Shown piece by piece: positions 6,923-19,735 of a stretch of DNA of 64,000 nucleotides; positions within the stretch are counted from its first letter, which is position 1, and each line of letters opens with the position of its first letter. Under the pieces are notes generated by a model that saw only the letters and a list, made by a program, of their open reading frames with translations, had not been told where the DNA came from and did not search any database. The stretch comes from Haloarcula pelagica (GTDB taxonomy: Archaea; Halobacteriota; Halobacteria; Halobacteriales; Haloarculaceae). The DNA is taken from assembly GCF_030127105.1 (NCBI RefSeq), contig NZ_CP126161.1, positions 1,302,001-1,366,000 on the forward strand. The letters run 5' to 3'. The translations under genes were made by a program, and so were the position numbers.

Positions 6923-8563
6923 ATGGCCGAAGACCCATACGCAGTCGGCAGCGGCGGCGAGCGAGCGTTCTGGGCCGACGCGGTCGCGGACGCGATCGAG
7001 GCCCGGGACCCCGAGGACCCGATCGTCATCAAGGGCGGCGTCTCTCCCTCCGGCGTCCCTCACATCGGTCACTTCAACGAGATCATGCGGGGCTACTTCG
7101 TCGCCGAGGCACTCCGGGACCGCGGCCACGAGGTCCGGCAGGTGTTCACCGCCGACGACAAGGATCGCCTGCGGAAGGTGCCCCGCCAGCTCGCCGACCT
7201 GGAGTGGAACGTCGTCGGCCTGGGCGAGGTCGACGCGGGCGCACTCGGGCGGAACCTCGGGAAACCCTACACCGACATCCCCGATCCGTTCGGCTGCTGT
7301 GACTCCTACGGCGCCCACTTCACGAACCTCCTGAAGAAGAGCGCCGAACTGGTCGGCGTCGATGTCGAGTTCGTCTCGAACACCGAACTGTACGAAGACG
7401 GCGAGTTCGAGGCCGTCACCCGTCGCGTGCTCGAACGCGCCGACCGCGCCCGCGAGGTGCTCGCGGAGTACCAGAACAAGGTCGACGACGACTACGTCCC
7501 CTTTCTCCCGCAGTGTTCCGACTGTGGGAGACTCACCGAGGGGGTCACGGACGTGGACCTCGACGCCGGCGAGGTCAGCTACGTCTGTACGGATGTCGAG
7601 GCCGGCGACCAGACCATCGAGGGCTGCGGGCACGAAGGAACGACGACGCTCCGGGAGGGGAAACTCCCCTGGCGCTTCGAGTGGCCCGCCCAGTGGGAGA
7701 TCCTGGGCGTGGACTTCGAGCCGTTCGGCAAGGACCACGCGGAGGGGTCCTGGCCCTCCGGCGAGGACATCGCCGAGAACGTGCTGGACATCCAGCCCCC
7801 GGTGCCGATGGTGTACGAGTGGTTCACGCTCGACGGCGAACCGCTCTCCTCGTCGTCGGGCAACGTCATCACCGTCGACGAGGTGCTGGAGATTCTGGAG
7901 CCCGAGGTGTTCAAGTACTTCTTCGTCAAGACCCCGCGCAAGCAGCGGGACTTCTCCGTCGAGCACGTCGACCAGCTCGTCGACGACTTCGACCGGTTCG
8001 AAGCGCTGTACTTCGGCGAGCGCGACGCCCGCGACGAGGACGAACAGGCGGTCGCCGACCGCGCGTACCCGATGGTCGTTCCCGACCCCGACCCCGAGCG
8101 GGTCCGTATCCCCTACACCTTCGCCGCGGTGCTGGGGATGACCGACGATGTCGACCTTCGCGAGGAGATCGCCCGACGGGAGGGCCACATCCCCGAGGAC
8201 GCCCCCGACTGGGCCGTCGAGGGCGCCCTGGCCCGCGTCGAACGGGCACGCAACTGGGCGCGTCGGACAGGCAACGCCTTCGACTACGAACTCAAACGGA
8301 CCGAGATCCCGGACCACGACTTCGACGCGGCCACCGAGGCGGCGCTTGACGACTTGGCCGACTTCGTCGCCGAAGGCCACGACGGCGAGACGATCCAGGG
8401 CGAGATCTACGAGACGGCCAAACGCCACGACGTGCCCGTCGGCGACTTCTTCGCCGCCGGCTACCGCCTGCTGTTCGACGACACCGAAGGTCCGCAACTG
8501 GGCACGTTCATCGCCAAACTCGACCAGGAGTTCGTCGTCGAGCGGTTGCGCCGCGAGGCGTAA
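6923..8563 (+). CDS. lysS: Lysyl-tRNA synthetase, class I
   Basis: Charges tRNA-Lys. The 546-residue protein is the class I (archaeal/spirochaetal) type, shown by the Rossmann signature HIGH at residues 47-50 within SPSGVPHIGHFNE and the KMSKS-equivalent LSSSSGNVI further on. A zinc-ribbon-like insert with CSDCG and CTD..GCG cysteines lies between about residues 198 and 236. The ATG at 6923 follows the pyrH stop by one base and has GGAGG at 6912-6916 as a ribosome-binding site inside the pyrH end. The stop at 8561-8563 is immediately followed, in the same frame, by a truncated transposase. Confidence 0.95.
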   Translation: MAEDPYAVGSGGERAFWADAVADAIEARDPEDPIVIKGGVSPSGVPHIGHFNEIMRGYFVAEALRDRGHEVRQVFTADDKDRLRKVPRQLADLEWNVVGLGEVDAGALGRNLGKPYTDIPDPFGCCDSYGAHFTNLLKKSAELVGVDVEFVSNTELYEDGEFEAVTRRVLERADRAREVLAEYQNKVDDDYVPFLPQCSDCGRLTEGVTDVDLDAGEVSYVCTDVEAGDQTIEGCGHEGTTTLREGKLPWRFEWPAQWEILGVDFEPFGKDHAEGSWPSGEDIAENVLDIQPPVPMVYEWFTLDGEPLSSSSGNVITVDEVLEILEPEVFKYFFVKTPRKQRDFSVEHVDQLVDDFDRFEALYFGERDARDEDEQAVADRAYPMVVPDPDPERVRIPYTFAAVLGMTDDVDLREEIARREGHIPEDAPDWAVEGALARVERARNWARRTGNAFDYELKRTEIPDHDFDAATEAALDDLADFVAEGHDGETIQGEIYETAKRHDVPVGDFFAAGYRLLFDDTEGPQLGTFIAKLDQEFVVERLRREA

Positions 8564-8566
8564 ACG

Positions 8567-9040
8567 TCCTACACGAAACGGCCAAACCTCACTATCCAGC
8601 AGTTGAAGACACCGCTATCGGTCGATACGGCGACCGACGCCGTTCTCGATATTCACGTGACGACAACGCGGAAGCACGATACCCAGATTGCGCCACAGGT
8701 AGTGAAACGGAACGGACAGTCCATCGCGGTGTCGACCGGTGACAAGGGATACGACGACCAGAAACTCCGGTGGCTCGCCCGTGCCCATGATGTTCGACCA
8801 CTCATCAAGCATCGTGAGTTCACACCGCTCCACAAAGCGTGGAATGCACGGTTGGACAGTGATCTCTACCACAGGCGGAAGATGAACGAGACAGTCAACG
8901 CGGCGATCAAACAGAGATTCGGTACATTCGTCCGGTCACGCCTCTGGTGGAAGCAGTTCCGCGAACTCGTTATCAAGTGCATCGTTCACAACGTGGAGCG
9001 AAACCCCGCTATTTCACACGAGGAGTGCGACTGTCCGTGA
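8567..9040 (+). pseudogene. IS5-type transposase, 5'-truncated
   Basis: The open frame runs directly after the lysS stop without a proper start; TTG at 8603 is the first possible one. The readable product is about 157 residues, half of a full IS4/IS5-group transposase. It keeps the catalytic core: the first Asp in SVDTATDAV, the second in STGDKGYDD, and the C-terminal Y-x2-R-x3-E-x6-K signature in YHRRKMNETVNAAIK. The N-terminal DNA-binding region is missing. The remainder ends in a normal stop at 9040. It is unlikely to be active on its own. Confidence 0.85.
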
Positions 9041-16637: not shown

Positions 16638-17330
16638 TCAGTCGTCGGCGGTGACCGCTTCGAGTTCCTCGTCTTCTTCCTCTGCCGCTTCGAGTTCGGC
16701 CTCCTCTTCTTCCTTCTTGGCCTTGATCTTCTTCATGCGGAAGATCTCCTCACGCTCCTGTTCTTCGAGTTTCTGCTCGATGTACTCCTTGTTGTCGTGG
16801 AGGTCGGGCAGGAGCTTGAACTCCAGGGCGTTGACGCGGCGCTTCGTGGTCTCGATCTCTTCGAGCATCTTTTTCATCGCCGTCTCGACCTCTGCAGCGA
16901 GGATGATGTTCTCCAGCAGTTCCTCGTAGGCGTCGGCGGCCTCGTCGATCCGGGCAGAGGTGCCCATCACGCCGTAGCCCCGCTCGTCGAGGGACTTCTG
17001 GACCTTGCTGGATTCGATCTGGGGGACGACTACGCCCATGATGTTCTTCGACTGGGTCGTCAGTTCGGGGTGTTCCTTGAGCGCGGCCGCGGCCCCGCGG
17101 ACGGCGACGTCACCCTCCATCGCGCGGGCCATGTCGATCGCGTGCTGTGCGCGGTCGTAGGAGTCGTCCAGATCGTCCCGAACGTCCTGTGCCTGATCCA
17201 GGATGTCCATGAACTCCATGATGAGCCCGTCACGCTTCTTCTCCAGCGTGTCGTGGCCACGCTCCGAGAGCTCGATGCGGTCCTCGATCTGCATCAAGTT
17301 CTTGCGCGTGGGCTTGACGTCCTTAGCCAT
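16638..17330 (-). CDS. atpD: A-type ATP synthase subunit D
   Basis: Central rotor stalk subunit that links the A3B3 head to the c-ring. The 230-residue protein begins [19 protein letters not shown] and is almost entirely helical, with long N- and C-terminal coiled-coil stretches and the family core around [17 protein letters not shown]. The acidic C-terminal tail is typical of halophiles. It is separated from atpB by the rhodopsin gene and has its own TATA-like element, so it is probably transcribed on its own. Confidence 0.96.
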
Positions 17331-17354
17331 TACCGGTCCGTTTCGGGCCGAGGC

Positions 17355-17363
17355 AGTTAATCG
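17355..17363 (-). promoter_or_regulatory. TATA-like element of atpD
   Basis: The minus strand reads GATTAACTG, with AAAACG just upstream, about 29 bases before the atpD ATG at 17330. This is the usual position for a leaderless haloarchaeal transcript and suggests that atpD is not dependent on transcription through the rhodopsin gene. Confidence 0.5.
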
Positions 17364-17398
17364 TTTTCAGTCGTTCCCGGGCTCCTTGACACGCACGC

Positions 17399-17406
17399 AA
17401 AAAAAA
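17399..17406 (-). terminator. Poly-T terminator after the rhodopsin gene
   Basis: Eight T residues in a row on the minus strand, about 41 bases past the rhodopsin stop codon. Poly-T runs are the main intrinsic termination signal in archaea. The run stands between the rhodopsin stop and the atpD TATA-like element. Confidence 0.65.
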
Positions 17407-17447: not shown

Positions 17448-18200
17448 TCAGTCGTCGGCCGGCGTCGCGGCACCGGTCGCCTGTGCAGCGCCGTCGAGGA
17501 CGCTGTGGCTGCGCAGCAGGATGAACCCGAAGCCGACCTTCGCGACCAGGTCGATCACCATGAAGCCGGCCGTCTCCGGGAAGATGCCTACGAGACCGAG
17601 CCCTTCGGTCCCGATGAGCCACCAGACCGGGTAGACGAGCCAGACCACGGTGACGAGGTTCCGCAACGTCTTGAACGTACTCTGTGTGTCACTGGGTAAG
17701 TCGCTGACCCGGCCGGACAGCGAACTGAACAGGAAGTACAGCAGGACCAGCAGGAAGGCCGTGCTGATACCCCACCAGACCAGCCGCTCGGCACCTGGCG
17801 CGAGCACGCCGCTGCCCGCCGACAGCGTCGCGACGACGCCGGTCCCGATCATCAGCACGTCGAGGCTGACCAGCGACGCGATCGTGTTGCGGTCGGCCCC
17901 GGCCAACAGCCCAAGGTCGTACAGCAACAGCGGTGTCGTGAACAGCCAGTCAGTGTACCGCGCCCAGTAGATGGGCGCCTCCGGGTCGTTCGGTAACTCG
18001 ATGATCGTCAACCCGAAGCCAAGCGCCATCGCGAGGTAGTTCACGAAGGCGATCGCCGTTATCAGTATCGTGGCGATGTAGAACTTCTGTCGTCGTTCGT
18101 CTGTCTCTCCCCATCCTCGGGCGATGAAGTACACCATCCCGAGGAACATTCCGGCTGTACCGAGCCAGAGCCATATCGATTCCGAGCCTGGTTGTGGCAT
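17448..18200 (-). CDS. bop: Bacteriorhodopsin-type (cruxrhodopsin-like) light-driven proton pump
   Basis: A 250-residue seven-helix retinal protein. All residues of an outward proton pump are visible: [19 protein letters not shown] holds R81, D84 (proton acceptor), T88 and D95 (proton donor). E199 and E209 form the release pair, and D217 and K221 (retinal Schiff base) lie in [12 protein letters not shown]. Asp at both acceptor and donor positions rules out halorhodopsin and sensory rhodopsins. The sequence is closest in feel to the cruxrhodopsins of Haloarcula relatives. The gene lies between atpB and atpD, on their strand, with its own upstream element, TATA box and poly-T end. No bat, brp or blh gene is nearby, so retinal synthesis and any regulator must be encoded elsewhere. 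The ATG at 18200 is preferred over an upstream in-frame codon because it gives the normal N-terminus. Confidence 0.95.
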
Positions 18201-18232
18201 AGTGCACCTAGGCTTTCGGCTGGACAAGCAAA

Positions 18233-18241
18233 GTTACATAT
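18233..18241 (-). promoter_or_regulatory. bop: TATA box of the rhodopsin gene
   Basis: The minus strand reads TATATGTAAC across 18233-18242. It is centred about 37 bases before the ATG, giving a predicted leader of some 10 bases, in line with the very short leader known for bop genes. Confidence 0.65.
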
Positions 18242-18257
18242 ACCCAAACAGTTTGGT
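18242..18257 (-). promoter_or_regulatory. bop: Palindromic upstream activator-like element of the rhodopsin gene
   Basis: The minus strand reads ACCAAACTGTTTGGGT, an almost perfect palindrome abutting the TATA box. Its ACC...GGGT ends and its position match the general layout of the Bat-bound UAS known upstream of bop in Halobacterium. Assignment to Bat is an inference. Confidence 0.55.
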
Positions 18258-18316: not shown

Positions 18317-19735
18317 TCAGGCTTCGGCTTCGACAGCTTCTGCGGACTCGTCCTCGCGGTAGTGCTCCTCGATGAGCTCCTCGTCGATGCGGTTCAAGGC
18401 ATCCTTCGGGAGCATCGAGAGCAGGTCCCAGCCGAGTTCGAGCGTCTCGTCGATGTCGCGGTCGGTGTCGAAGCCCTGGTCGACGAACTCGTCCTCGAAG
18501 CGGTCCGCGAAGTCCAGGTACTTGTTGTCCAGTTCCGACAGCGCCTCGCGGCCGACGATGTTCACGAGGTCGCGCAGGTCCTCACCCTCCGCGTAGGCGG
18601 CGAAGATCTGGTCTTTCACGTCGGCGTGGTCGGCGCGGGTCAGGCCCTCGCCGATCCCGTCGTCCATCAGCCGCGAGAGGCTCGGCAGGACGTTGATCGG
18701 CGGCTGGACGCCCTGGCTGTTGAGGTCCCGATCGATGTAGATCTGGCCCTCGGTGATGTATCCCGTCAGGTCCGGGATCGGGTGGGTGTCGTCGTCGCCG
18801 GGCATCGTCAGGATCGGGATCTGGGTCACCGAGCCGGCACGGCCCTCGATGCGGCCGGCCCGCTCGTAGAGCTGTGCGAGGTCGGTGTACATGTATCCGG
18901 GGTAGCCACGGCGGCCCGGGACCTCCTCACGTGCGGCGCCGATCTCGCGCAGCGCCTCACAGTAGTTGGTCATGTCCGTCAGGATGACCAGGACGTGGTA
19001 GTCCTTCTCGAAGGCCAGATACTCGGCGGTCGTCAGCGCCAGCCGCGGCGTGATCGTCCGCTCGACGGCCGGGTCGTCCGCGAGGTTCATGAAGACGACC
19101 GAGCGTTCCAGCGCGCCGGTGCGCTCGAAGTCGTCCATGAACTCGTTTGCCTCCTCGGCCGTGATCCCCATGGCGCCGAAGATCACTGCGAACTCCGACC
19201 CCTCGTCGTCGTCGCCTTCCTCCTCTTCGGGCACGGTCGCCTGCCGGGCGATCTGGAGTGCCAGATCGTTGTGGGGCAGGCCCGAGGCCGAGAAGATCGG
19301 CAGTTTCTGGCCGCGAACGAGCGTGTTCATCCCGTCGATCGCCGAAACGCCCGTCTGGATGAACTCCTCGGGGTACTCGCGCGAGTAGGGGTTGATCGCC
19401 GCGCCGACGATGTCCTGGCGCTCGTCCGGGACGATCTCGGGGCCGCCGTCGATCGGCTGGCCGGTCCCGTCGAGCACCCGTCCGAGGAGGTCCTCGGTGA
19501 CGGGCATCTTCATCGTCTCGCCGAGGAAGCGGACCGACGCGTCGCGGTCGATCCCCTCGGTGCCTTCGAACACCTGGATGGCGACGTAGTCGCTCGCCGA
19601 TTCGAGCACCTGGCCACGGCGGGTCTCGCCGTCGCCGATCTCGATCTCGACGATCTCGTCGTAGCCGACCGGTTCGTCGGTCTCGACGAACACCAGCGGG
19701 CCACTGATCTCTGTGATAGTCTGGTACTCTTTCAT
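18317..19735 (-). CDS. atpB: A-type ATP synthase subunit B
   Basis: Regulatory, non-catalytic nucleotide-binding subunit of the A3B3 head. The 472-residue protein starts [20 protein letters not shown] and has the family segments [35 protein letters not shown] and [19 protein letters not shown]. The canonical Walker A lysine motif is absent, as expected for subunit B. It follows atpA after two bases, and ends 60 bases before the rhodopsin upstream element. Confidence 0.97.

Follow-up and report, generated by a model that had tools for sequence, protein, structure and literature searches.

The closest described system is the bop regulon of Halobacterium. In the passages of the literature compared here, upstream activator sequences (UASs) are reported for this regulon, including those of brp and crtB1, and Bat is named as the activator (PMC1447603, PMC1885257). 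A further excerpt describes the bop gene of H. salinarum as light-responsive and ties the function of Bat to a flavin-binding PAS domain (PMC3184054). The insertion of bop and accessory genes between the ATP synthase genes atpB and atpD has also been published, and the same passages give the atpB-bop-atpD arrangement for bacteriorhodopsin I of H. marismortui (HmBRI) (PMC7755889, PMC6465532). One of them states that the HmBRI gene has no separate promoter and that its expression is constitutive (PMC7755889). Light has also been reported to have no effect on the expression of this gene (Fu et al. 2010, cited in the passages of PMC7755889 and PMC6465532).

The window, by which is meant the whole stretch of 64,000 nucleotides of Haloarcula pelagica DNA that was analysed, contains a gene for a proton pump of the bacteriorhodopsin type in the atpB-bop-atpD arrangement (Table 1). 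The encoded protein shares 51% identity with H. salinarum BR, and the columns of R82, D85, D96, E194, E204, D212 and K216 are kept. Unlike in H. salinarum, the gene is flanked by atpB and atpD and lies about 1 Mb away from the bat-like gene, crtB and brp. At 8603-9040 in the window there is an ORF which, judged by eye from its translation, resembles a truncated insertion-sequence transposase.

Table 1. Features of the rhodopsin locus (window coordinates) and of the carotenoid gene cluster (coordinates of contig C1).
Feature	Position	Strand	Evidence or remarks
atpB, A-type ATP synthase subunit B	18317..19735	minus	PF00006, PF22919, PF02874
UAS-like 16-mer ACCAAACTGTTTGGGT	18242..18257	minus	-57 to -42 from rhodopsin ATG (ATG at 18200)
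Perfect inverted repeat CCAAAC-T-GTTTGG	18244..18256	minus	6-bp arms, 1-nt centre
Probable TATA element TTTG (TTTA in most relatives)	18229..18232	minus	-32 to -29; column conservation, 24 distinct congeneric sequences
TGCACT directly 5' of ATG, probable transcription start and very short leader	18201..18206	minus	Conserved columns
Bacteriorhodopsin-type proton pump gene (bop / cruxrhodopsin)	17448..18200	minus	PF01036, E 1.1e-70
T8 run 3' of rhodopsin gene, probable terminator	17399..17406	minus	T-runs in congeneric loci
Conserved block GACTGAAAACGATTAACTGCC before atpD, probable atpD promoter	17352..17372	minus	25 of 25 congeneric loci
atpD, A-type ATP synthase subunit D	16638..17330	minus	PF01813
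Cluster, in order: Bat-like protein gene, phytoene synthase gene crtB, gene of lycopene cyclase-domain protein (crtY), brp	C1:2369465-2374034		

The initial annotation had pointed to a palindrome upstream of the rhodopsin gene, laid out like the UAS bound by Bat in Halobacterium, where bop responds to oxygen and light. The 16-mer ACCAAACTGTTTGGGT is indeed present exactly on the minus strand, and its core is a perfect inverted repeat. Symmetry of this kind is not unusual by itself, as the window holds 40 13-mers of the same symmetry. The 16-mer occurs once in the whole genome. Its matches with up to three mismatches number 16 genome-wide, compared with 15 for a reversed control pattern, and being no commoner than the control they indicate that the rhodopsin site is not a repeated element. 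Eleven of the 15 other matches fall in coding sequence, as judged from ORF overlap, and four (L008, L009, L010 and L014) lie outside it.

At the level of sequence, two things lift the site above chance: it resembles the Halobacterium bop UAS, and it holds a fixed position upstream of bacteriorhodopsin genes. In both Halobacterium sp. TGN-42-S1 (L050) and H. salinarum DSM 3754 (L226), the bop UAS reads ACCATACTGATTGGGT and starts 54 nt before the ATG. The rhodopsin site starts 57 nt before its ATG and shares 14 of the 16 bases, the two mismatches leaving it a ACCNNACTRGTTNGG-like sequence of the bop type. It is also the only match in the window with three mismatches or fewer to the Halobacterium site, where 0.08 would be expected from shuffles. 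The resemblance extends to a TTAC-type element about 10 bp downstream and to a related site before the carotenoid gene (crtB1 in H. salinarum). As to place, the site lies 5' of the probable TATA element and of the putative short-leader start of a bacteriorhodopsin gene. No near match was found upstream of the two other rhodopsin genes of the genome (L002 and L003, with 8 and 7 mismatches at best), which were taken by eye for sensory rhodopsin and halorhodopsin.

Rhodopsin genes were found in 129 of 146 genomes of the family that were searched, and the 30 best loci were taken, 25 of which belong to the genus of the window (Haloarcula in the broad sense, in which 29 of 32 genomes gave rhodopsin matches). 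In all 25 congeneric loci atpB lies upstream of the rhodopsin gene and atpD downstream, and in all of them the core CCNNANNNNTTNGG starts at -56 (24 distinct sequences, closely related). The same alignment bears on the TATA box, which had been placed at TATATGTAAC (18242..18233, minus strand), directly abutting the palindrome so that the last T of ACCAAACTGTTTGGGT is common to both. This placement is probably wrong by about 10 bp: the TATATG columns vary among the congeners, TTT(A/G) at -32 to -29 is better kept, and the element is thus more likely to be found at 18232-18229. At sequence level, the rhodopsin gene has a promoter-like block of its own, made up of the UAS, a spacer of about 10 bp, TTT(A/G) and TGCACT joined to the ATG. 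The palindrome itself, by sequence and position, is very probably a bop-type UAS, and to this extent the Bat-type layout that had been suggested holds.

Promoters of other genera were scored with a bop consensus as the seed. The set comprised 70 loci, that is, the best 80 of 196 named loci less 8 from Haloarcula and 2 that were truncated. A score of at least 14 was reached at 36 of the 70, where 2.6 would be expected from shuffles. At 34 of the 70 the site scoring at least 14 lay 50-63 nt before an in-frame ATG, compared with 0-1 of 69 in six other distance bins. The score is unspecific alone, with 20 matches of at least 14 in the window, two of which are the rhodopsin site read on either strand; combined with position, it separates well. 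At the lower threshold of 12, a site was present at the expected place in 51 of the 70 loci (the distance control applies to the score of 14 only), and the remaining 19 without such a site count against the UAS reading. When the Halobacterium site was used as the reference, with up to five mismatches, a match fell in the 50-63 nt bin at 17 of 68 loci of other genera and at 0-2 in eight other bins; in Haloarcula it did so at 18 of 25 loci (24 distinct, closely related), against 0 in other bins.

Five bop promoters of Halorubrum and an uncultured relative (L058, L059, L060, L062 and L063) retain only the left half-site ACCTNACTATG, at an unchanged distance from the ATG; their right half, TTNGG, has been lost. 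At L047, from another genus, no UAS-like site was seen upstream by eye. In the assembly of H. salinarum DSM 3754 (L049, L226), the sequence of the bop promoter stretch becomes unrelated beyond GTTGGAGTTATTG, and the body of bop is found at the start of a second contig, behind another piece of unrelated DNA; the first codons of bop look as if they were interrupted by an insertion element.

Clusters of the order atpB-bat-bop-atpD, which occur in Halobellus, Halorubrum and relatives, share with Haloarcula the position of bop between atpB and atpD. Both bat and bop lie between these two genes in 14 named loci, and 12 of the 14 have a site scoring at least 12 at 54-60 nt before the ATG. They differ from the Haloarcula locus in that bat lies directly upstream of bop and encodes a LOV-like motif with Cys, and in that 6 of the 14 also hold brp.

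It had further been proposed that rhodopsin is controlled separately from the ATP synthase genes that surround it. The sequences support this, in that the promoter-like block of the rhodopsin gene is matched by a separate conserved block before atpD. The latter, ACTG[AG]AAAC[CG][AG]TTAACTG, is present in 25 of 25 congeneric loci and also in three congeners that gave no match to rhodopsin (G008, G016 and G019), and so belongs to atpD. A T-run of at least five lies between rhodopsin and atpD in 23 of the 25 loci. In Haloquadratum, atpD is likewise treated as a separate unit in the passage of a transcriptome study that was compared (PMC5496347).

Alternatively, the rhodopsin gene might merely be co-transcribed with the ATP synthase operon, lacking a promoter of its own, in which case the palindrome would be incidental. 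This is what the published statement on HmBRI implies (PMC7755889, in the passage compared), gene order and strand fit an operon, and the absence of any T-run of at least four between atpB and the UAS in 12 of the 25 congeneric loci makes readthrough from atpB possible. It would leave unexplained, however, why core and spacing are kept in 25 of 25 loci along with the TATA-like and start blocks, why the same element and spacing recur before bop genes outside atp clusters, and why the block before atpD persists where rhodopsin is absent, and we regard it as very improbable. That the palindrome arose by chance is scarcely credible. The frequency of such symmetry in the window and the lack of genome-wide enrichment of the 16-mer would allow it, but the likeness to the Halobacterium bop UAS and the positional conservation across genera speak strongly against it. 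The conserved promoter-like block found in congeneric Haloarcula sequences argues against the statement in PMC7755889 that the HmBRI gene has no separate promoter.

If the palindrome is a Bat-type site, a second occurrence would be expected at retinal or carotenoid genes, and one was found. The genome has two brp-type genes, one of them in the crtB-crtY-brp cluster (Table 1). The second site, TCCAAAGTAGTTGGGT, lies 232 nt before crtB of this cluster, with TTAAA about 10 bp downstream; no good UAS match precedes the other brp. The two sites differ at 4 of 16 bases and in their distance from the gene (232 versus 57 nt), which counts against a shared activator. The four differing bases also render the genome-wide count of the 16-mer uninformative as a test of the regulon. 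A composite pattern of UAS and TATA element has two matches in 4.46 Mb, which are these two promoters, to both of which the pattern was fitted; the reversed control gives 6.

The crtB site too can be followed in the genus, in which crtB loci were matched in 32 genomes and 30 loci were examined. The Bat-like gene lies directly upstream of crtB in 28 of the 30. A crtB site scoring at least 8 of 10 is present at about -197 to -232 in 21, and 8 more have a weaker one in roughly this position (score 7, a value that other parts of these stretches reach as well); a single locus (L143) has none. Both the Bat-like gene and a UAS-like site before crtB are kept in the three rhodopsin-less congeners G008, G016 and G019, which means that the system does not serve rhodopsin alone. 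Halobacterium (L050) has TCCAAACTGGTGGGGTA upstream of crtB1 and a similar palindrome between brp and brz, in agreement with the UAS sites reported in the passages of PMC1447603 and PMC1885257. At the crtB locus of the Haloarcula pelagica genome itself (L137 ~8122-8299; G000:C1 ~2371121-2371298), reading by eye would place the start of a crtB transcript close to an ATG some 40 nt downstream of the site; the leader would be about 180 nt long and might hold a short ORF.

A homologue of Bat had been a further expectation, and the protein encoded beside crtB qualifies as one. It has PAS, GAF, BAT and HTH_10 domains, and its gene clusters with brp and crtB, as bat does in Halobacterium. The C-terminal parts of 46 proteins were placed in a tree, namely 27 of 35 bop-linked Bats, 8 crtB-linked proteins of Haloarcula and 11 own paralogs. 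One branch (100/98) comprises the 27 bop-linked Bats, the 8 crtB-linked proteins and the own paralog L198, the order inside the branch being without resolution. Compared with the Bat of H. salinarum, the crtB-linked protein is shorter and has no LOV-like motif. A search of the genome for Brz by sequence and by PF23454, run without a positive control, found no match.

A true activator site in the rhodopsin promoter could instead be bound by some other HTH_10 protein, such as L131 or L198. There are 42 HTH_10 matches in the genome, several of them end-duplicates, and L198 falls within the Bat clade. Moreover, in a tblastn search of the genome with Halobacterium Bat, the paralog L131 came out best (33%, 4.6e-67), slightly above the crtB-linked protein in second place (32%, 3.5e-62). 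Nevertheless L131 (as L195 in the tree) lies outside the 100/98 branch and has STFTQHL, not STFHQHL, in the region of the recognition helix, whereas, of the proteins considered, the crtB-linked one has a gene that adjoins the second copy of the site together with crtB, crtY and brp, neighbours typical of Halobacterium bat. Binding by another member of the family is on balance unlikely, and the crtB-linked protein is preferred as the candidate activator. As regards the duplicate matches, similar matches recur at constant offsets near the ends of contigs C1-C4 of the genome (147018 in C4, ~433915 in C2), and the contigs look end-redundant.

The crtB-linked protein is set apart from other Bats by a motif of the PAS domain, GxN(C/H/P)R(F/L)LQ, the Cys form of which we take to be the LOV photoreceptor motif. 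All 35 bop-linked Bats from other genera that were compared (those of more than 450 aa from the fetched flanks of bop loci) carry the motif, with C in 18, H in 4 and P in 13. The residue is His in Halobacterium-type Bats and Pro in Halorubrum types. None of 12 Haloarcula crtB-linked proteins carries GxN[C/H/P]R[FL]LQ; these were the own protein and 11 from 12 stretches, the twelfth of which held no such gene. For this reason the protein is termed Bat-like and not Bat. Since bop of H. salinarum is described as light-responsive although the motif of its Bat has no Cys, the absence of Cys is no proof of light-blindness; in Haloarcula, the whole motif is missing. Its absence would fit the report of light-independent HmBRI expression, and light control of the rhodopsin promoter is doubtful.

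Taken together, the palindrome would be the UAS of a self-contained bop promoter, that of a gene situated between atpB and atpD, and it is probable that the crtB-linked Bat-type activator is what binds it and that the same protein also acts on the crtB site. This activator, encoded directly upstream of crtB-crtY-brp, would bind the two half-sites as a dimer and help TBP/TFB at the weak TTT(A/G) TATA box. By acting likewise on the similar site before crtB, it would cause opsin and the retinal precursor to be made together from two loci. As for the inducing cue, one other than light, for instance oxygen or redox, seems the likelier.

It is tempting to extend this to the history of the locus, although here the reading is speculative and we would not expect it to hold in full. 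Haloarcula may have split an ancestral bat-bop-crtY-brp cassette, such that the pump gene with its UAS remained in place between atpB and atpD and the motif-less Bat-like protein moved with the carotenoid genes. From there it would act in trans on two promoters that are not linked, having been switched to a cue other than light, and even species that lost rhodopsin would have retained it to control carotenoid genes. The scenario is made slightly less likely by the Bat of Halobacterium, which has no LOV cysteine either, so that the argument from light loses force.

The kind of site is already known, but this Haloarcula site is described in none of the literature passages compared. New relative to those passages are its conservation in Haloarcula, the partner site before crtB and a Bat-like protein from which the LOV-like motif is missing. 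The promoter-like block challenges the printed statement that the bacteriorhodopsin I gene of H. marismortui has no promoter of its own. The two sites name a putative two-promoter regulon, for the pump and for the precursor of its chromophore, together with a candidate activator. Finally, a Bat-like protein that has no LOV-like motif provides a possible reason for the reported light-independent expression.
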